From Zasmidium citrigriseum (lineage: Eukaryota; Ascomycota; Dothideomycetes; Mycosphaerellales; Mycosphaerellaceae), in contig NHNW01000015.1 of the NCBI GenBank assembly GCA_002786025.1, forward strand, positions 186,001 through 250,000: a stretch of 64,000 bases of DNA, in the 5' to 3' direction. Made by a program: the position numbers and the translations under genes. Positions 3,262 to 62,415 of the stretch are shown here, in pieces. Under the pieces are notes generated by a model. The model ran no database searches. It worked only from the letters and a program-made list of their open reading frames with translations, and was not told where the DNA came from. The stretch's first letter is position 1. Every line of letters begins with the position of its first letter.

Positions 3262-4509
3262 ATGCCGGCCCCAGTCGAGCTGGCATTGTCCTCCCTGCTA
3301 CCTACAGTCGCCTTTCTTCCTCCCGATCTCATCAGTCTTGCGAGCTCACTCCTCGCACAATCACGCGCCAAAGCCGCGTCGTTGAAGCCAGAAGAAGAGA
3401 TCGGCCGTACCTACGCTTGCGCGCATATCGCCTGCGAGAGATTGAAGAAGCGGCTAGATTTGGAGATTGGCAAGCCTGCACCACCTGTCAAACCGCGAGT
3501 CTACGAGAAATTGTACAGATACCTCGACGGCGCATTGACGACGACCATACCGCGGACGCCAACTACAAATCGCGTCAAGGATGCTATTGGGAACGTTAGT
3601 GGCAGTGGGAGAGGAAGTGCCAGAGGCGATGGAACTCCCAGCAGAAGAACTCAAGACTGGAAGACGCCGACAACAAGTACGAGAAAGAGGACAAGAGACG
3701 AGGTGGACGAGAAGCAAGATGGCGCGGTGCCAGAATTTGTGATGCCCATGATTCGCACGATCTGCAAGACGAATGGTGTGCCACCTGCTGCTCCGCATGT
3801 TCTTGTAGGGGTGACATCCGTGGTTCAAGAGATAGTATCGAGAACACAGAAAGCAAGTGCGGATCCGCCGAGTAAGAGGAGGAGGAAGACGCCGCAGTCG
3901 GCAAAGTCGAATACTTCTGCGACAGCAATACCGGCGGGGAATGGAAGTATTGAGACCAGCAAGTGGCCGGCCTTGGCAATTGCGTTGCAGCTATTCACTG
4001 CGGCGAGGATGAAGGGAGTTGAGGTCGATGATGAGAGTATCAGGACTATGCAGAAGAGGGCGACTGAGGCTGTGAAGAAGTTCTGTGAGACTAAGAAAGA
4101 CTCATTACCTGCGGAGCTGGTGAACGGCCTCAAGAAACTGGATTCGAATATCAAGTTCTACGTGCTGGAAGCGGACGACAGCGGCTGGCTTGACATGGAC
4201 TGGTACAAGAACGTTCCCGAAGCGCAGGATGAGGAGCCTGAAATCGAGGAGAGTGACTTAGACAACGACAGCGAAGACCTAGCGGCGAAGAAGAGACCCT
4301 ACAAAACTCCACTGAGACGAAAAGAAAAGCATGGAGGGAAAGCCGCAGATCCCTCGATCGATGAACCGGGTGCCGCTGGCCTGCTGCCCGGTCTAGGAAC
4401 CATGTTCCAGTCTGCTGTGGACTGGCTCAGCGAGGACAGAAGATGGGAGTACTCGCAGTGGAAGAAAGAGATGATGAAAGAGATCAACGCCATGGAGCAA
4501 GAAGTATGA
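3262..4509 (+). CDS. ORC6: Origin recognition complex subunit 6
   Basis: Intronless, 415 residues. Smallest subunit of the complex that marks replication origins and loads MCM helicase in the nucleus. The N-terminal part (about residues 1-90: LLPTVAFLPPDLISLASSLL, then RTYACAHIACERLKKRLDLE and YEKLYRYLD) matches the first TFIIB/cyclin-like fold of fungal Orc6. A serine/threonine/arginine-rich segment follows (about 95-145, several TP/SP sites suitable for CDK), then a second helical region (160-290) with WPALAIALQLFTAARMKG, then an acidic stretch near 315-335 and a short C-terminal helix of the kind that anchors Orc6 to the complex. It runs convergent with ketopantoate reductase, whose stop is 124 bases away. 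Confidence 0.85.
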   Translation: MPAPVELALSSLLPTVAFLPPDLISLASSLLAQSRAKAASLKPEEEIGRTYACAHIACERLKKRLDLEIGKPAPPVKPRVYEKLYRYLDGALTTTIPRTPTTNRVKDAIGNVSGSGRGSARGDGTPSRRTQDWKTPTTSTRKRTRDEVDEKQDGAVPEFVMPMIRTICKTNGVPPAAPHVLVGVTSVVQEIVSRTQKASADPPSKRRRKTPQSAKSNTSATAIPAGNGSIETSKWPALAIALQLFTAARMKGVEVDDESIRTMQKRATEAVKKFCETKKDSLPAELVNGLKKLDSNIKFYVLEADDSGWLDMDWYKNVPEAQDEEPEIEESDLDNDSEDLAAKKRPYKTPLRRKEKHGGKAADPSIDEPGAAGLLPGLGTMFQSAVDWLSEDRRWEYSQWKKEMMKEINAMEQEV

Positions 4510-4633
4510 TCACCAACGACAGACTAATGAAACCAAATCAGGGGGCCACCGGGCTATGAAGTTGTGATTCTTCTACTTATCTTCTATCTCTTATCACCGA
4601 CGCGTCTCTAACATGCATGCTGACCTGATAGAC

Positions 4634-5647
4634 TTATTGAACAGTCATTATCGGCTTCCAACCATCGCTTTCGCTCTTCGACGTGGCAAAGTCTCTCGCC
4701 TTCGCCAGGACATAGAGCATCTTCAAATACGGCGTCTCCACCTCCAACTCCTCAGCCTTCCTCACTGCGTTACCCAAGATGGCCTCAACTTCGATATTCC
4801 TCCCATGCCGAATGTCGACAAGCATACTTGGTTCCTTCCCACCAGTCTTCAACCGATCCAAATGCCTCGCCATATGCTCCTCAATCTGCCTCTCGGTAAT
4901 CGCACCCTCATAACCCGCCTTCGCAGCAAGTCTCCCAACCTCCCTCATAACCTCCTTGGCCATCCCCACCGCATACTCCGAAGACCGCAAATAATTTGCA
5001 TCATCACACAAAGTCAACGCCGTAATGGGATTGAAACAAGCATTCAACCCCAACTTGTTCCACCTCCGAACCTGGATATCCTCATGCACAGGAGCCTTGG
5101 CCCCTCCCTTCGCAAACAGTTCCGAGAGCCTCACTGCTGCTTGCTTCGCCTCTGGACCAGCATTGGCAGGAAACGTCCCAATCTCGAATTCCTCCAACGG
5201 CGTCCCATGCTCGACGATCCCAGGCTCCACCTGCGTCGTAGGCAAATACACCACCCCGGAGATTATTGGATTGGCGGAGTAGGAGTACTGCTCCGCATAA
5301 GCCTCCTCTATTGCAATCCCATTCTGCGCGAGCACAATCGCCGTTCTTTGCGGCGTAACAGCGTCCTCAATCAATTCCGCCGTGCCCGGGAATGCCTTAC
5401 TACACACAAGAACGTAATCGAAAGGTCCGTAAGCTTCAGCTTCTGCACATGTCCGAACAACGTTGGGACGTGTACGAATGTGGCCCCATTTTACCGATCG
5501 TACGAGGATTCCGTTTTCGTTTACGGCTGTGTAGTTTGTGCGGCAGACGGTTGTTATGTTGGCGCCGCCACGCGAGAGGAGGGAGGCGTAGATGCAGCCT
5601 ACGCCGCCGGTGCCGAAGATGAGGATTTTGGGTGGTGGGAGGGACAT
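4634..5647 (-). CDS. 2-dehydropantoate 2-reductase (ketopantoate reductase family)
   Basis: NADPH-dependent reduction of ketopantoate to pantoate, on the route to pantothenate and CoA. Intronless; 337 residues from the ATG at 5647 (MSLPPPKILIFGTGGVG). An in-frame ATG 26 codons upstream exists, but the Rossmann strand begins directly after the chosen start. Motifs: nucleotide-binding GTGGVGCIYA, LAQNGI, the catalytic-lysine/asparagine segment RRWNKLGLNACFNPITAL, and the C-terminal substrate-binding segment PSMLVDIRHGRNIEVEAILG. Length and motif order fit the ApbA/PanE family. Fungi carry several paralogues, some acting on other 2-keto acids, so the exact substrate is inferred. Confidence 0.85.
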   Translation of the reverse strand: MSLPPPKILIFGTGGVGCIYASLLSRGGANITTVCRTNYTAVNENGILVRSVKWGHIRTRPNVVRTCAEAEAYGPFDYVLVCSKAFPGTAELIEDAVTPQRTAIVLAQNGIAIEEAYAEQYSYSANPIISGVVYLPTTQVEPGIVEHGTPLEEFEIGTFPANAGPEAKQAAVRLSELFAKGGAKAPVHEDIQVRRWNKLGLNACFNPITALTLCDDANYLRSSEYAVGMAKEVMREVGRLAAKAGYEGAITERQIEEHMARHLDRLKTGGKEPSMLVDIRHGRNIEVEAILGNAVRKAEELEVETPYLKMLYVLAKARDFATSKSESDGWKPIMTVQ

Positions 5648-53641: not shown

Positions 53642-55194
53642 ATGCAGCCTCCTCTCGTAATCGACCTGCGAGTCGAGCGGCGCATCCTGCGCAAGCTCGA
53701 CCTCACTCTCATCCCAATGCTGTGGCTTCTGATGATCGTGTCGTTCGCAGACCGCAGCAACATCGGTATGGCCCGACGTATGGAGATCCTCTCATCACAT
53801 GAAACTAATGCTGTACTACAGGTAACGCGAAGATCCAAGGCATGGACAAAGACCTGCACCTGACAGGCAACAAGTACAACATGGCCGTAATGGTCTTTAC
53901 CATTGCATATATGGTCTTCGGAATTCCCGCGGGTATCCTCTTCAAGAAGGTCGGCCCTCCGTGCCTCGCTGGGATGATGGTGCTTTGGGGCATCTGCGCT
54001 CTTGGTCAAGGACTCGTCAACAGCTGGGCCGGTCTTGTGGCGCTTCGCTTCCTGATGGGCGTCTTTGAAGCCGGCTTCGTCCCTGGCTCCGCATACTTGA
54101 TCGGCTCTTACTACAAGAAGGACGAGTTCCTCAAGAGATACGCCTTCTTCTTCAGTGGCGCTATCATTGCAGGCGCTTTCAATGGCCTGTTCTCCTTTTT
54201 GCTAGCCAAGGCGGATGGTGCTGGTGGATATGCTGGTTGGAGATGGATCTTCATTGTATGTATGTGAAGCATGAGACCTCGAGAGGGGATTGACTGACAC
54301 AGGGGTCCAGGTCGAGGGCCTGATCACATGCTTCCTGGGCTTCGTGTCATTCTTCGCCCTCCCTAGCTTTCCAGAGAAGACGACCCTTTTCAACGACAGC
54401 GACAAAGTTGTCCTCCTCGAACGCTTACGGCAAGACGGCGGTTACTACGAACACGATGACATGAAGAAGCATGTCCTCGAAGCTCTGCGAGATTGGAAGA
54501 TCTGGCTCGCGTAAGTCCAACCCCATCCTTCCCACACACATCACTAACCACCACCTCTAGCACCATCGTGTATATGTCCGCTCAAGAGAACGTCTCCTCA
54601 ATCGCCGCATTCCTCCCCTCAATCCTCAAAGGCTTGGGGTACACCTCCGTCTCCGCCCAAATCCACTCGATCCCCGTCTACTGCACCGCCTTCGCCATGA
54701 CGCTCCTTTGTGCCTCTCTTAGCGAAAAACTTCGGCAGCGGTACTACTTCGCCCTCTTCGGCGGCATACTCAACCTCACTGGTCTCGCTCTCCAGCTCTC
54801 CTACCCTCACTCAACCAACATCCGATACATGGGCACCTTCTTCATGACCACAGGCTGCTACGTTGTCATGCCGATCATGGTCGTTTGGAACGCGATCAAT
54901 GTGGGTAAGGGGTACAAGAGGGCTGTGTCGTTTGCTATGACGACCGCGGTGGGCAATTGTGGTGCTTTGATCTCGAGTAACGTTTACATTACGGAGGAGG
55001 CGCCTTTGTATCGGACGGGGTTCTCGGTTGGGTTGGGTATGAGCTGTCTGTCGATTGTGGCGATGACGGTGCTGTATGTTGGACTGTTGATGGGCAATGC
55101 GAGGAAGGCGAAGGAGGTCGAGAGCTTGCCAACAAGCGCGTATGACGACGAGAAGGGAGGCGATGAGGATCCCCATTTCAGATACCAGCTATAG
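53642..55194 (+). CDS. MFS anion:cation symporter, Dal5/TNA1-like
   Basis: Predicted 463 residues in four exons: 53642-53765, 53822-54255, 54311-54510, 54561-55194, all in phase. The family pattern is clear: RILRKLDLTLIPMLWLLMIV with FADRSNIGNAK in helix 1, NMAVMVFTIAYMVFGIPAG, the MFS helix 4 segment ALRFLMGVFEAGFVPGSAYL, and SYYKKDEFLKRYAFFF. The central loop carries LPSFPEKTTLFNDSDK and the C-terminal tail is acidic. Relatives import nicotinate, pantothenate, allantoate or other carboxylates at the plasma membrane. The N-terminus is short for the family, so an upstream coding exon remains possible. Convergent with the THR1-AIRS fusion gene, 140 bases between stops. Confidence 0.85.
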
Positions 55195-55334: not shown

Positions 55335-57573
55335 CTATCTATCCCAATGCTCAAAGTTCCTCAGTATCACACCCTCGTCTTTCCGAGACACCAGCTTTCC
55401 GACCCTGTATACCTTCTCTCCCGCGCCCTCCAGCGCCTTTGTAGCATCAGCAGCCAGGCTCTCCTTCACGACGATTATCATGCCCAGACCAGTGTTCCAC
55501 GTCCTAGCGAACTCTCGACTGCTCACATTTCCCGCCTTCTTCAGCCACATGAGCACCTCGGGCACTGGCCAAGCAGAAGCATCGACTTCCGCTGCGAGGT
55601 TCTTGGGCAGCATACGGGGGATGTTGTCTTCCAGACCACCGCCTGTGATGTGTGCCATTCCGAGTAAGAGATCTTTCTGCACGGCCGCGAGGAGTGGCTT
55701 GACGTATATCCGCGTGGGAGTAAGCAAGCTGTGGCCGACGGTCTTGCTCGCGTCCCAGGGCGCCTTATCGGTGAAGTCAAGGCCCTTTCTTTCGAGGATC
55801 TTTCGCACGAGGGAGAAACCATTCGAGTGGACGCCGTTGCTGGGTAAGCCGAGAAGAACATCTCCTTCTTGCATGGCGTCCTTGACGGGCAGAACTTTCT
55901 GACCCTTCTTGATGGCGCCCGTAGCAGCGCCTCCTGCATCGAACTCGTTGCCTTGGTACATACCGGGCATCTCTGCGGTCTCGCCTCCCACTAGAGCGCA
56001 CCCAGCCTCTTTACAGCCTTTTGCTACGCTCTCGACGAATGAGACTGCGTCAGGAACGTTCAGAGTCGAGCAGGCGTAGTAATCCATAAATGTCAGGGGC
56101 TCAGCACCTTGCACCACCAGGTCATTTACGTTCATAGCCACGAGGTCGATGCCAACAGTCGAGAAGTCGTTCATAGCGAAAGCGATCTTCAGCTTGGTAC
56201 CGACGCCATCGATGGCCTGGATGAGCATCGGCGCCTCCTCGTATCCTGCCCCTGCAAGATCAAGAGCACCGCCGAATCCGCCAATCTCAGCATCTGCGCC
56301 TGGTCGCCGAGTCGATGCCACAGCAGCTTTGATCGACTTGACAAGCTCGTTACCGGCATCTATCGAGACACCAGCATCGGCGTACGTCATGCCGCCGCCC
56401 TGCGCCTTTGAAGCAGATTCCTGCGAGATGGTAAGACCATCGTAGGCAGGTTCAAGCAACTTCCACTCGCATGAGATTTTCTCATTCTTGAATTGCTGGA
56501 TGATGTATTCGGCAATCTGTTCGAAGTTTTGAGTCGCCAGAGCAAGGATCGTGGGTCCAGCTCCGGACAGGCAGATACCGAGCAGACCTGGATGTGTGGA
56601 AGGAGTGACAGATGACAGAATCTCAGTCAAACCGGGAATGAGAGACTTTCTGTAGGGCTGATGGATCTTGTCCTGCATGCCATCATAGATGAGCTCTGGG
56701 TTGGGAGGGCTTTGGCCAAGTGCTGTCGTCAGAAGTGCGACTCTCTGAAGATTGTAGATCGTGTCAGCTTTTTCATAGGAAGTCGGCAGTACTCGTCTCG
56801 CATCAGCAGTCGCGACCTCGAAGTCTGGAATGATGGCTATGCACTTGATCTCCTTGGCCCAGGGAAATCGAATGTGTTTGCCGATGTTGAGTGGCGGAAC
56901 AGGTGGCTTCAGTCCGGTGTCCTCGCCACCCTGTGGTGCTGGCAGCACTTCTGCGAGAGGAATCTCCCTCCGCTTGAGATCTTCAGGGTTGAGCTCCTTG
57001 AGATAGCTGCCCACGAAGCCACCATACAGCGCTGCAGCGACATTGTCAGGATGTCTCTCGATCATGAGACAGAAGTCCAAGATCCGGTCCTTGGTGAGGT
57101 TGAGCTTGCCAACCTCGCTTCCCAATGCCACACCAGCGACAACGGCGGCTCCAGAAGATCCCAGTCCTCGGCCCAAGGGAATTGGGTTGATAATGTGGAC
57201 ATGTGTATTGGCCGGGAAAGCCCGTTGCTCGTGACATCGCAGGACGTAAAGCGCAGTCTGAGTGATGAGATTCCGTTCTGGTTCAAGGGCAACATTCTCC
57301 TTGCCTAAACCTTCATATGTGATCCGGCAGTTGTATGGTGCTCCAGAGGATTGCTCGTCGCCGACTGTGACCTTGAGTTCGAGCCATACTGAAAGTGCGA
57401 GACCGATCACATCGAAGCCCGGGCCTGATTCTCTCAGTGTTTGCACTCATATGTAAACTTTCGTTTGGCATACCGATGTTTGCTGAAGAGCACGGAACCC
57501 CTACCGACTGTCAGCCATTGCACGCGAAGTGGGACGTCGTTGCCGCAATACTGATGGAGGTCGTTGTTGCCAT
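55335..57573 (-). CDS. Homoserine kinase fused to AIR synthetase (phosphoribosylformylglycinamidine cyclo-ligase)
   Basis: One 712-residue reading frame. Exon 1 57552-57573 (MATTTSI), intron 57501-57551, exon 2 57474-57500, intron 57425-57473, exon 3 55335-57424. Residues 1 to about 355 are a complete homoserine kinase (THR1, GHMP fold): IRVPCSSANIGPGFDVIGLA at the N-terminus, the ATP loop PIPLGRGLGSSGAAVVAGVA, RHPDNVAAALYGGFVGSYL, and GICLSGAGPTILALA. Residues about 362-712 are a complete AIR synthetase like the C-terminal half of fungal ADE5,7: MTYADAGVSIDAGNELVKSI, IGGFGGALDL, DGVGTKLKIA, VGGETAEMPGMYQ, SNGVHSNGFSLVRKI, HITGGGLEDNIPRML. No stop, frameshift or intron separates them; a linker of about ten residues does. 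The GARS half of ADE5,7 is absent. Normally these are separate proteins for threonine and purine synthesis. Confidence 0.9.
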
Positions 57574-57913: not shown

Positions 57914-60049
57914 TTACGAATTCCCACCACTCGAGCTTCCATGCCCTCTGCTGGATGAAGCACCTCCGGGGTCCAACAATAAATGAGGCTTCAAGAAGTT
58001 CTCATCCAACTTGTTAAAGAGCGTGCCCGCATCCTCCCCTGTTGCGTTCAGGATTTGTGAGATAGCTCCCCTTGCAGTAAGGCCGCCCGTTGTTTGGCCA
58101 CTGGACTCGTTTCGAGTTCCTGAGACTGGATAAGATCCCAAGTCGTCTTGGTCTTGCTGACGTTGTGGAGACCTTCGCGCCGCCGGAGGCAGGTCAAGGT
58201 CGTCATTTTCGTCATCGCTGAGATTGCTCTCATCTTCTTGATAGAGTAGCCCTTGCTCGGCTTGATTGTGAGGGTCACCTCTCCGTACGCGAGAGCTGTT
58301 TCGCCTCTCGAGATCGGGCTGGATGGGCGGCGTGCCTGCGATGTTCCCAGAGCTGTAGCTGGCAGTGCCGGCTCTACTTCGATGAGCAACATTGTCATCC
58401 AGGCCAATCGTACCATTGCCGTAGCCGACGGTGCTACCCTTCGGCGTATGACCAAACGCAGAGCCATTCTTCCGCGAGAATGCTCCTGAATGTGGTACAG
58501 GCTCAATGTCGAACTCATCGTCACTATCGATCTCTTCCACTACACCCGTGCGGATGTTTAGGATCTCTAGCATACGAGCTGTGGTCCCTCCGAAGATGAT
58601 GACAGTCAACACAACTGTCACCAAGACTGTCGCTCGTAATGCTCTCCCAGCAGGTCCGGTCAATCCAGCCGCCAGTGCAACTCCAACAGCCCCACGTAGG
58701 CCTGCCCAGAACAACATCATCTTCCAATTGGCCGGCAATTCCTCTGCAACGTTTTCTTGTCCTCTTCTCCTAGCTCTGTAGCGAATGAACCAGTTGATCA
58801 AGCCTGCAAGTGGGAACACGGCGCACCATCGTGCGACACAAATTCCGATCAAGGTGACCAGAATGAAGAGTGGCTTGTACTCCAGTTCGCGTTCGGTGAA
58901 AAGCGATAGTCCAAGATAGATAAAGATGAAGTTCTCGGTCAACTGGGCCATCAGAGAGAACGTGAACTTGGTTGTAAGCTGGGTGCGGCGCGACATGTTG
59001 TGGTAGGCGTAGTGTTTGAGGCATATGCCGCAGAACAGCAGAGCCACGATACCTGATGAAGCATTAGCGGGTTGGAATTGCAAATGGTGCTTCTCAACAT
59101 ACCACTCATATGAATCGCATTGGTGAAGAAGTACGATGCGTAAGCGATCAGGATAATCAGACAGCTCTCAATCTTCGGATCCCTCCTGATGTGCGTGAAT
59201 TTGAGTAGCAAGCTGGTCCCCAGTCCGATGATGATCCCGATCGCCAGACTGCCAAAGAAGACCAGCAAAAAGAGCCCAATACTTTCGAACAGGCTCAGAA
59301 CAGTCAACTTGCCAGCCTCGTCCGCACTTTTGTAGTTCTGAGCGGTTTCGAACAAGACAATGGCAATTGCATCGTTCAGGATACTCTCGCCGAAAATGAC
59401 GGTGTACAGCTTTGGGTCAACCTTGTATGTATTGAAGATTGCGAGAATCGTGACGGGATCGGTAGCGGAGAGCGTCGCGCCAACGGCCAGGGCATCGACG
59501 AATGTAATGTTGAGTCCCTCCAAGGGTATCCGTGTCCATAGCCATAGAATCACACCCAGGACAATGGCCGATATGAAGGTCCCCGCAAAGGCGAACGTGA
59601 GAATACTGCCAATGTTGCGGAAGAAGTTGCCCTGTATCCAAACATCAGCAATCCCGTTCCTCCTCCTTCTTTGCCTCTTATTCACGCACCTGATGCAACT
59701 CATACCCACTCGCCAAAATAATCGGCGGCAGCAAAAGATTAAAAAAGAACTGATAATCAAAAGTCACGACGTCCAGCACGCTATTGACCTGAGTCAACCG
59801 CAGTATCAGGCCAATAACCATTCCCGCGAAAATCGATATGACCGTCTCGTGCACCGCCTGGATTTTCTTGCTCCTCAGAACATAGCTCATAAAGAAGGCC
59901 ATGATCAGCAGGACGATCAGGATCAGGAGAGCCCATGATGAGTATATCTCTTTCTGGCCCGCTTCGGGGTTCTCTTCGTCGTCCGGGTCGGCGGTTTCGC
60001 GAGCGGCGAGGCGACTCACGCCGTAGAGGAGTCCGAGTGACAAGCCCAT
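57914..60049 (-). CDS. NHX1: Endosomal/vacuolar Na+(K+)/H+ exchanger
   Basis: Cation/proton antiporter of the CPA1 family that sets luminal pH in late endosomes and vacuoles. Exons 59690-60049, 59103-59631, 57914-59052; 675 residues. About 12 helices. Diagnostic stretches: FFNLLLPPIILASGYELHQ (amiloride-site helix), GATLSATDPVTILAIFNTYK, and the ion-binding Asn-Asp of FGESILNDAIAIVLFETAQN. Then SLMAQLTENFIFIYLGLSLF and the arginine-bearing MLFWAGLRGAVGVALAAGL. The hydrophilic C-terminal tail (about 450-675) is Ser/Asp-rich, with an acidic EEIDSDDEFDIEP patch and a Gly/Ser end. The N-terminus may act as a signal sequence, as in yeast Nhx1. Confidence 0.93.
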
Positions 60050-60456: not shown

Positions 60457-62415
60457 ATGACTGGCCTTCGTCTTGACGATCTCCCAGCGGAGCTACTCCT
60501 AGAAATCAGCGAATACCTTGACGTCACCCACAAGCCAAGCCTCAAAGCCCTCTCCCTCACCAACAAGACACTCCTCTCCCCAACTTCCTCAACTCTATTC
60601 CGAAAGATCAACTTCCACGTCTCCAGCCCGGAATCTTGCGTCGAAATGGTTCAAAAATGGAAAGAGATCCTCCTTCGACGAGGTTGCCTCCAAGCCGTCC
60701 GAACCATCGAAATTGACGGCTTCATGGCCAGCGAAGACGATCAAAACGCATTCCAGGCGTGCGCGTACTGCCGCGGTATTTTTGGCGAATTCATATTTGA
60801 ATACGGCCTCCACGACCACGGAAATGTCATGAATCTGGAGGCCGAAGACGAAGCGTTCGTCCCAATCTCTACATTCATTACAGACCTCCCCCACGTCGGC
60901 GACGTGATCTGGCGCTGCCACAACGTCGTAGCGCAGTGCGTACTCAATGCCGCGAGAGATCTAGGATCGTCACTGCGACTTCATGTCCATGCCTTGAGAC
61001 TGTTGCATCTCAACACAAACGAAATCGGCGTCCGCGAATTGCAAATCCTGAGATCGACAAATTTGCATGCTCTGACTGTTCACTACATCGCATTGGAGAT
61101 GAACGGAGTATGGTCAGATCATAAACCAAAACGAACCATCTCGAAATTGATCGCTGGCCTCGCGCCAAACCTGAAAGATCTAACGACACTCGGCTGCACC
61201 AACAAGATGTTCTCCCCCGACCACCAATCGCCCCTGCTAAATCTCAATCTCGTCGAGCAGCGCACAGAAAAGTTCCATCTCGCCCGACTGGAAAGTCTGC
61301 GCCTCGCCCCCAAAACGCAAATCGACGAGGAAGATGTTCCAATTTGGTACAGTCTCATCGATCCTGCAAGCCTTCGTGTGCTCGAACTTAACGCTGTACT
61401 GTCAAACCCACTGTTCCGATGGATGTCGACCAATGCTCAATTTGACCGTCTCCAGGATCTCACTTTCTCTTTCGACAACACCGGACATCAGACGCCAGTA
61501 AGGGAAAGGCCCTCAAGAGCCGATGACCTTCATATGTGGTTGAGCAAACTGCCCAAGTTGACGGCACTGAGGCTGAGCGCTCCTCTCTGTCCCGAATATG
61601 TCCGAGTATTTGAGGCAGCCCTCGATTATCATGGGCAAACGTTGCGAGAACTCGCTGTCCGTCCTCCTTTGTATGCCACAAACTCGCGAGAAGATGCGTG
61701 GACGATATTCGAAGTTGATACGGACGTCTTGGTGATGATATCTCAGGCCTGTCCAAGTCTTGAGGAACTTCACATCCCACTTCGGCGGAGACATTTTGAC
61801 CGAACCGAGACGCAGTTGTACGAAGCATTAGCTGCTTTCCCAAAACTGACCAACATTTCGCTGCAGTTCGATTGTGGCTGCTGGGGCTTGGACGCTGTAG
61901 CACGAGACACCGGGCTAGATCGGACCGACGAGGATCGTGAGCCGTGGAATGAAGTCTACATGGGCCCCAATATTACCCAAGGAAGAGTCAAGCGAGCGCT
62001 CATCAATGCGGCGGTTGACGAATGTCTTGCAAAGCAAGTCTGGACCGCGATATCTTCGAACAAGGTCGGATCCGCGCTCAGATCCCTTCAAATAAAGGCC
62101 ATGGACAGTGAAGGTATTGGCACCACGCCGGTGGATCTGCGCCAGGCTCGTGCATTTCGCAGACATTACAACGACCTCTCCGCTATGTTTCAAGAGCTCG
62201 AGCGTACATATGTTGTCTCCAGGGGCATTCGGGACGACAGTGATGAGTTGATCGTTCGTGAGGTTGGCCGCGACAAGCGTGAATCGCAGAGGTGGGATGT
62301 GTGCCATCCGAATGGGCCTGAGATGGAGTTGTTCAGGAGCATATGGCCACAGATTGGCGAGGATAGTGATTGGCGCGGCGATTGGCGTAGTTTTCCGCCT
62401 GCAGCATTGATGTGA
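60457..62415 (+). CDS. F-box protein with leucine-rich, LRR-like body
   Basis: Intronless, 652 residues. The N-terminal F-box (TGLRLDDLPAELLLEISEYL, then ALSLTNKTLLSPTSSTLF) fits the Skp1-binding consensus, so the protein is probably a substrate receptor of an SCF ubiquitin ligase. The rest has irregular leucine-rich segments (LRVLELNAVLSNPLFRWM, LTALRLSAPLCPEYVRVFEA, LEELHIPLRRRHF, FPKLTNISLQFDCGCWGLD), typical of the large, fast-evolving fungal F-box families. No catalytic motif. Substrate unknown. The length and the sustained frame support a real gene. Its 3' end faces the transcription-factor-domain gene, only 13 bases from that gene's stop. Confidence 0.8.
   Translation: MTGLRLDDLPAELLLEISEYLDVTHKPSLKALSLTNKTLLSPTSSTLFRKINFHVSSPESCVEMVQKWKEILLRRGCLQAVRTIEIDGFMASEDDQNAFQACAYCRGIFGEFIFEYGLHDHGNVMNLEAEDEAFVPISTFITDLPHVGDVIWRCHNVVAQCVLNAARDLGSSLRLHVHALRLLHLNTNEIGVRELQILRSTNLHALTVHYIALEMNGVWSDHKPKRTISKLIAGLAPNLKDLTTLGCTNKMFSPDHQSPLLNLNLVEQRTEKFHLARLESLRLAPKTQIDEEDVPIWYSLIDPASLRVLELNAVLSNPLFRWMSTNAQFDRLQDLTFSFDNTGHQTPVRERPSRADDLHMWLSKLPKLTALRLSAPLCPEYVRVFEAALDYHGQTLRELAVRPPLYATNSREDAWTIFEVDTDVLVMISQACPSLEELHIPLRRRHFDRTETQLYEALAAFPKLTNISLQFDCGCWGLDAVARDTGLDRTDEDREPWNEVYMGPNITQGRVKRALINAAVDECLAKQVWTAISSNKVGSALRSLQIKAMDSEGIGTTPVDLRQARAFRRHYNDLSAMFQELERTYVVSRGIRDDSDELIVREVGRDKRESQRWDVCHPNGPEMELFRSIWPQIGEDSDWRGDWRSFPPAALM

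Follow-up and report, generated by a model that had tools for sequence, protein, structure and literature searches.

A homoserine kinase–AIR synthetase fusion in Zasmidium citrigriseum and related fungi, with GARS in a separate gene

ADE5,7, which carries GARS and AIR synthetase (AIRS) domains in one polypeptide, is the textbook bifunctional enzyme of fungi, and fungal homoserine kinase (HSK), THR1, is known as a stand-alone enzyme. Other multi-domain proteins of interest here are described in two reports: the Fusarium protein FPSE_07765, which has aminotransferase and homoserine kinase domains and a possible bacterial origin (PMC3460631), and a fusion of spermidine synthase and saccharopine reductase in basidiomycetes (PMC10051792). 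In the window (the whole 64,000-nucleotide stretch of Zasmidium citrigriseum DNA that was analyzed), HSK is fused to AIRS. This arrangement is one of known enzymes in a fusion for which we found no description in the literature searched; that literature was open-licence, with subscription journals mostly outside it, and Leonard and Richards 2012, a survey of gene fusions and fissions in fungi, may list the fusion.

The fusion gene lies on the minus strand, where positions 57446..55335 form one open frame of 703 codons in the open reading frame list. Two predicted introns upstream of this frame restore the HSK N-terminus (MATTTSIRVPCSSANIGPGFDVIG) and give a protein of 712 residues from a predicted ATG at 57573, in agreement with the coordinates 55335..57573 proposed in the first-pass annotation. 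The features are as follows.

55335..57573, minus strand: complete coding sequence of the HSK–AIRS fusion, from the open reading frame, exon joining and family matches; spliced protein 712 aa
57552..57573, minus strand: predicted exon 1 (MATTTSI..), from splice sites in the sequence and the HSK N-terminal motif
57501..57551, minus strand: predicted intron 1, 51 nt, GT..AG, from sequence
57474..57500, minus strand: predicted exon 2 (..VPCSSANI..), from sequence
57425..57473, minus strand: predicted intron 2, 49 nt, GT..AG, from sequence
56436..57424, minus strand: HSK part of exon 3, last residues ..LLEPAYDG; TIGR00191, 308.9 bits; GHMP domains
56391..56435, minus strand: 15-residue linker, poorly conserved and predicted disordered, from conservation fraction and pLDDT
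55338..56390, minus strand: AIRS part, first residue an in-frame Met (MTYADAGV..); TIGR00878, 399.2 bits; PF00586 and PF02769; Foldseek match 5vk4
55337-55335, minus strand: stop codon of the fusion gene

Several other open frames surround the gene. A Na+/H+ exchanger (PF00999, 70.7 bits) at 57914-59083 lies directly upstream on the same strand, and transporter-like open frames on the plus strand (53842-55194) converge on its 3' end; one piece of these, 54493-55191, has no Pfam match. An open frame of 652 codons at 60457-62412 (plus strand) is also without any Pfam match.

Both enzymes are represented by complete domains in the fusion protein. The HSK half matches the NCBIfam thrB equivalog TIGR00191 at 308.9 bits (cut-off 168.25) over residues 8-342 of the open reading frame, covering model positions 13-303 of 304, and the missing start is encoded in predicted exons 1 and 2. 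The AIRS half matches TIGR00878 (purM, equivalog_domain) at 399.2 bits (cut-off 236.35) over residues 353-686, covering model positions 1-330 of 332. The Pfam domains GHMP_kinases_N, GHMP_kinases_C, AIRS and AIRS_C all scored above their cut-offs, and profile searches with Pfam and NCBIfam detected no GARS domain in the fusion protein. The protein thus lacks the combination of GARS and AIRS in one polypeptide by which ADE5,7 is recognized, and instead shows the marks of a bifunctional fusion: two complete domains, one open frame and conservation among relatives. We also scanned seven signature motifs, three of HSK and four of AIRS, in the best 120 of 4599 relatives. Five were present in all 120 and two, ERHPDN and HITGGG, in 119; among the HSK motifs, PLGRGLGSS and HQPYR were found in 120/120 and ERHPDN in 119/120. 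The D, H and two R positions that we take to be the homoserine contacts in the M. jannaschii structure line up in the HSK half and were invariant in 19 sequences. These results uphold the statements of the first-pass annotation that HSK and AIRS are fused in one frame (both now above curated cut-offs) and that the GARS half is missing; its assignment to Dothideomycetes is correct as well.

Structural comparisons gave a clear result for the AIRS half. In a sequence search of solved structures, homoserine kinases matched the first half of the protein and AIR synthetases the second. A first structure model, built from a 19-sequence alignment, was poor (mean pLDDT 57.5). A second, from an alignment of 75 sequences (the window, 56 fusions and 18 ADE5,7), reached pLDDT 75.5 and pTM 0.54, with a good AIRS half (mostly pLDDT >90) and much of HSK poorly modelled; given the low pTM and the poor HSK modelling, the packing of the two halves cannot be read from the models. 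The best Foldseek matches of the AIRS half among solved structures were PurM structures, which places it in the PurM fold, and the closest was 5vk4 (TM-score 0.94 by target). Of the 50 rows shown, the top ones were AIR synthetases, followed by other members of that superfamily, and none was a homoserine kinase, a half that was itself poorly modelled. Against viral models, Foldseek gave only low-TM matches, the best being FGAM-synthase-like herpesvirus proteins.

The fusion is common among related fungi. All of the best 120 of 4599 protein matches, at 76-91% identity, contained GHMP and AIRS domains; the search took no candidates below 0.55 of the query length, which places stand-alone fungal THR1 outside this comparison. 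The first-pass annotation had presented the fusion as an oddity of a single gene, while suggesting a search for the same architecture in relatives; that search leads us to regard it as widespread and old. The sharing of one architecture by all 120 of these relatives excludes a chance join. It also bears on an artefact of assembly or gene modelling, to which we give a negligible probability, as the frame is open in the DNA itself and the same 120 come from many independent genomes and metagenomes. Assembly error was rejected on the ground that independent genomes carry the same fusion.

At least 22 genera were named with the fusion among these best 120 matches, including Zasmidium, Zymoseptoria, Pseudocercospora, Dothistroma, Hortaea, Teratosphaeria, Baudoinia, Acidomyces, Peltaster, Delphinella and Aureobasidium. 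For 6 of the 22 the lineage was looked up: Zasmidium, Hortaea and Dothistroma belong to Mycosphaerellales, Aureobasidium and Delphinella to Dothideales, and Peltaster to Dothideomycetes of uncertain order. With the other 16 placed where we presume them to belong, the fusion was seen only in Dothideomycetidae and close allies among the matches listed; Pleosporales, Botryosphaeriales, Venturiales, Mytilinidiales and Myriangiales lie outside these best 120. Because both Mycosphaerellales and Dothideales carry the fusion, it should date back at least to their common ancestor, unless it arose twice. The fusions of Dothistroma and four metagenome relatives share a short insertion near the HSK end, before the last strand, which is 7 residues long in two of them by alignment and was judged by eye in the other three. 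Scans of bacterial and archaeal genomes with fusion peptide patterns, which detect close relatives only, gave no confirmed relative, and in viral contigs the same patterns found two matches to the AIRS part only, at 37-38%.

In the Z. citrigriseum genome, both enzymes seem to be supplied by the fusion gene alone. In the assembly searched (44.4 Mb in 148 contigs, of unstated completeness), this gene was the single match to TIGR00191 and also to TIGR00878. AIRS_C occurred elsewhere only twice, both times in one frame of 1372 codons on contig 139, which we read as FGAM synthase from its size and the two AIRS_C copies. The first-pass annotation had raised a spare AIRS domain as an option. Because no other gene in the assembly matches purM, the AIRS half is not spare, and on current evidence purine synthesis depends on it. 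Later purine steps are present as AIRC (AIR carboxylase) and SAICAR synthetase, the latter as three exon-like pieces, one read across a stop. For the following step of the threonine route, presence is only probable: none of the seven matches to the threonine synthase model reached the cut-off, and the top three, which are consecutive on contig 46, look like one gene split by introns.

The annotation had also proposed looking for ADE5,7 elsewhere in the genome. GARS_A matched once, in a separate gene on another contig.

Contig 72, 3978-5153, minus strand: stand-alone GARS gene, 430 residues, one predicted intron

This gene ends directly after the GARS domain, and the next open frames are other genes. 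Since the sole GARS copy lies in a separate gene that ends in this way, ADE5,7 is, as read from the assembly, split in Z. citrigriseum. The predicted intron (GTAGGT..TAG) is near the start of the GARS gene, and the next open frame on the same strand past it (contig 72, 2356-3267) looks by eye like an O-methyltransferase.

Stand-alone GARS genes extend more widely across Dothideomycetes than the fusion matches listed. The best 120 of 7999 matches to the GARS protein were 323-514 residues long and all lacked the AIRS motif. The search by design took in nothing above about 750 residues, so the missing AIRS is no evidence by itself. Named holders among these 120, with lineages looked up, fell in at least seven Dothideomycete orders: Mycosphaerellales, Dothideales, Myriangiales (Elsinoe), Pleosporales (Parastagonospora), Botryosphaeriales (Phyllosticta, Neofusicoccum), Venturiales (Tothia) and Mytilinidiales (Lophium). 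Twenty of the 22 fusion genera were also named with stand-alone GARS, the two absent from these names being Acidomyces and Rachicladosporium. Two stand-alone GARS labelled Quercus suber sit among the Dothideomycete ones and are probably fungal contamination of the cork oak assembly.

Intact ADE5,7 showed a different distribution. We used the GARS followed by the AIRS of Z. citrigriseum as query, and all of the best 120 of 7990 matches contained both domains. Species names were given for 40 of these and none for 80, and no Dothideomycete was among the 40 named; lineages were looked up for five (Xylona, Watsoniomyces, Zalerion, Hyaloscypha and Caeruleum), and the other named ones we take to be non-Dothideomycete as well. 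An intact Dothideomycete ADE5,7 would be expected near the top of such a list, and the lack of a named one there, taken with stand-alone GARS in at least seven orders, leads us to regard the split of ADE5,7 as probably common to all Dothideomycetes.

Sequence comparisons suggest that the AIRS half descends from a fungal ADE5,7. Its identity is 73.9-91.2% to other fused AIRS among the best relatives listed, 59.8-68.0% (median 63.2) to the AIRS halves of the best 120 of 7990 ADE5,7 matches, which are of ascomycete type, and 48% to the best solved AIR synthetase, a bacterial one, in a structural alignment. For the GARS of Z. citrigriseum, identity is 65.0-93.5% with other stand-alone GARS and 60.8-68.5% with the GARS halves of ADE5,7. 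Stand-alone AIRS does exist in bacteria, so that the fungus could have acquired this half from there rather than from its own ADE5,7; we consider this extremely improbable, given the higher identity of AIRS to ADE5,7 halves than to the best bacterial structure and the matching pattern in GARS. In unrooted trees, fused AIRS separated from ADE5,7 AIRS (128 sequences, support 0.996) and stand-alone GARS from ADE5,7 GARS (141 sequences, support 0.999). We note that the trees have no outgroup and that sequences were picked by closeness to the query, with near-duplicates and short rows dropped beforehand (AIRS 241 to 128, GARS 241 to 141). Their topology fits one split and one fusion, followed by vertical descent. 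Together with the sole GARS being separate and AIRS lying closer to ADE5,7 halves than to solved AIR synthetases, the orders with separate GARS and the lack of a named Dothideomycete ADE5,7 support a relocated ADE5,7 half, which was among the origins first suggested.

The linker is the least conserved part of the protein. It comprises 15 residues between ..LLEPAYDG and MTYADAGV.., somewhat longer than the roughly ten first estimated for it, and 12-21 in the best 120 of 4599 relatives. Across 19 sequences, the mean fraction of the majority residue was 0.467 in the linker versus 0.872 in HSK and 0.832 in AIRS. Residues 343-352, within the linker, had pLDDT below 50 in the second model, and the linker is predicted to be disordered. 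That relatives differ in linker length yet preserve the reading frame speaks, on evolutionary grounds, for a single polypeptide.

The first residue of the AIRS half raises the question of a second product. Among the best 120 of 4599 fusions it is Met in 114 and Leu in 6, whereas at the same position the best 120 of 7990 ADE5,7 matches have Leu in 116 and Met in 4. Such a contrast, among the matches listed, would be expected if an internal promoter or start also yielded free AIRS, beginning at the in-frame Met (56390), beside the fusion. We consider two products very unlikely. On the AIRS tree the junction Met was lost four times among fusions, as in the 6 of 120 with Leu, and gained three times among ADE5,7, so the site drifts. 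Its context is weak (GGCGGCATGACG), and it is preceded in the predicted mRNA by 18 ATGs in any frame, of which one is the main start and 17 are others; reinitiation is therefore unlikely. If AIRS was briefly its own gene before fusing, a Met would be expected too; the junction Met may be the start codon of that once separate gene, a suggestive but weak indication.

Overall, we think it likely that one bifunctional enzyme is made and that it arose through a split of ADE5,7, with the AIRS half becoming attached to THR1. An ancestral ADE5,7 (GARS-AIRS) would have split in the Dothideomycete line, with GARS keeping its own gene, and the AIRS half would then have come in frame behind THR1, an order of events that we infer from the distributions above. 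The product would be a single full-length polypeptide of cytosolic type with both halves presumably active: the N-terminal half would phosphorylate homoserine, the fourth step of the route from aspartate to threonine, and the C-terminal half would close FGAM to AIR, the fifth step of purine synthesis. HSK and AIRS share no intermediate and act on unrelated substrates, so no channelling is expected, and a flexible tether probably connects the two domains. The simplest benefit would lie in producing two growth-supporting enzymes in equal amounts.

The tether could also make threonine and purine synthesis respond together, through joint oligomers, foci or the conversion of threonine to glycine. 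Elsewhere, both AIRS and HSK occur as homodimers, and in yeast threonine aldolase cuts threonine to glycine, the substrate of GARS. The fusion is moreover kept in frame in 120/120 relatives (best 120 of 4599), and yeast Thr1 and Ade5,7 are each listed among the enzymes that form punctate foci in stationary phase (PMC6874960). We nevertheless regard regulatory coupling as unlikely, since the linker is poorly conserved (0.467) and of variable length (12-21 residues), no conserved joining structure is visible and the two reactions lack a shared intermediate. A more elaborate form of this idea would have THR1 recapture AIRS, after a class-wide split of ADE5,7, as a useful control point of two routes, with oligomers or foci making threonine (and the glycine derived from it) and AIR vary together; this too we hold to be unlikely. 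A tethered bifunctional enzyme with both activities produced equally remains our preferred reading.

If this reading is correct, ADE5,7 was dismantled and one of its halves attached to an enzyme of amino acid synthesis, and this in a large clade to which well-studied fungi belong; such a change would surprise specialists in fungal metabolism. Database labels of the relatives (best 120 of 4599) are 'homoserine kinase' or 'phosphoribosylformylglycinamidine cyclo-ligase-like', and each name hides half of the protein. Knocking out the gene should leave the fungus dependent on a supply of threonine as well as adenine. For fungal phylogeny, the fusion together with a separate GARS is a candidate synapomorphy. 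It also makes it possible to ask directly whether joining enzymes of two pathways that have no intermediate in common serves a function or is simply tolerated.

Compared with known systems, the fusion is closest to fungal ADE5,7 in its AIRS half, which is homologous (63% median identity, best 120 of 7990 matches); ADE5,7 has a GARS half, whereas in the fusion GARS is left to its own gene and the partner is homoserine kinase. With THR1/ThrB (TIGR00191) it shares a complete domain with intact motifs, to which it adds AIRS at the C-terminus. Animal GART (GARS-AIRS-GARTF) and bacterial PurM share the AIRS fold (TM-scores of 0.94-0.96 by target to 5vk4, 1cli and 2v9y), but there AIRS has other partners or none. 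Fusarium FPSE_07765 likewise places an HSK domain in a fungal multi-domain protein, with a different partner and, according to that report, a different origin (PMC3460631). The basidiomycete spermidine synthase-saccharopine reductase also joins two biosynthetic routes in fungi, but its enzymes and lineage differ (PMC10051792).
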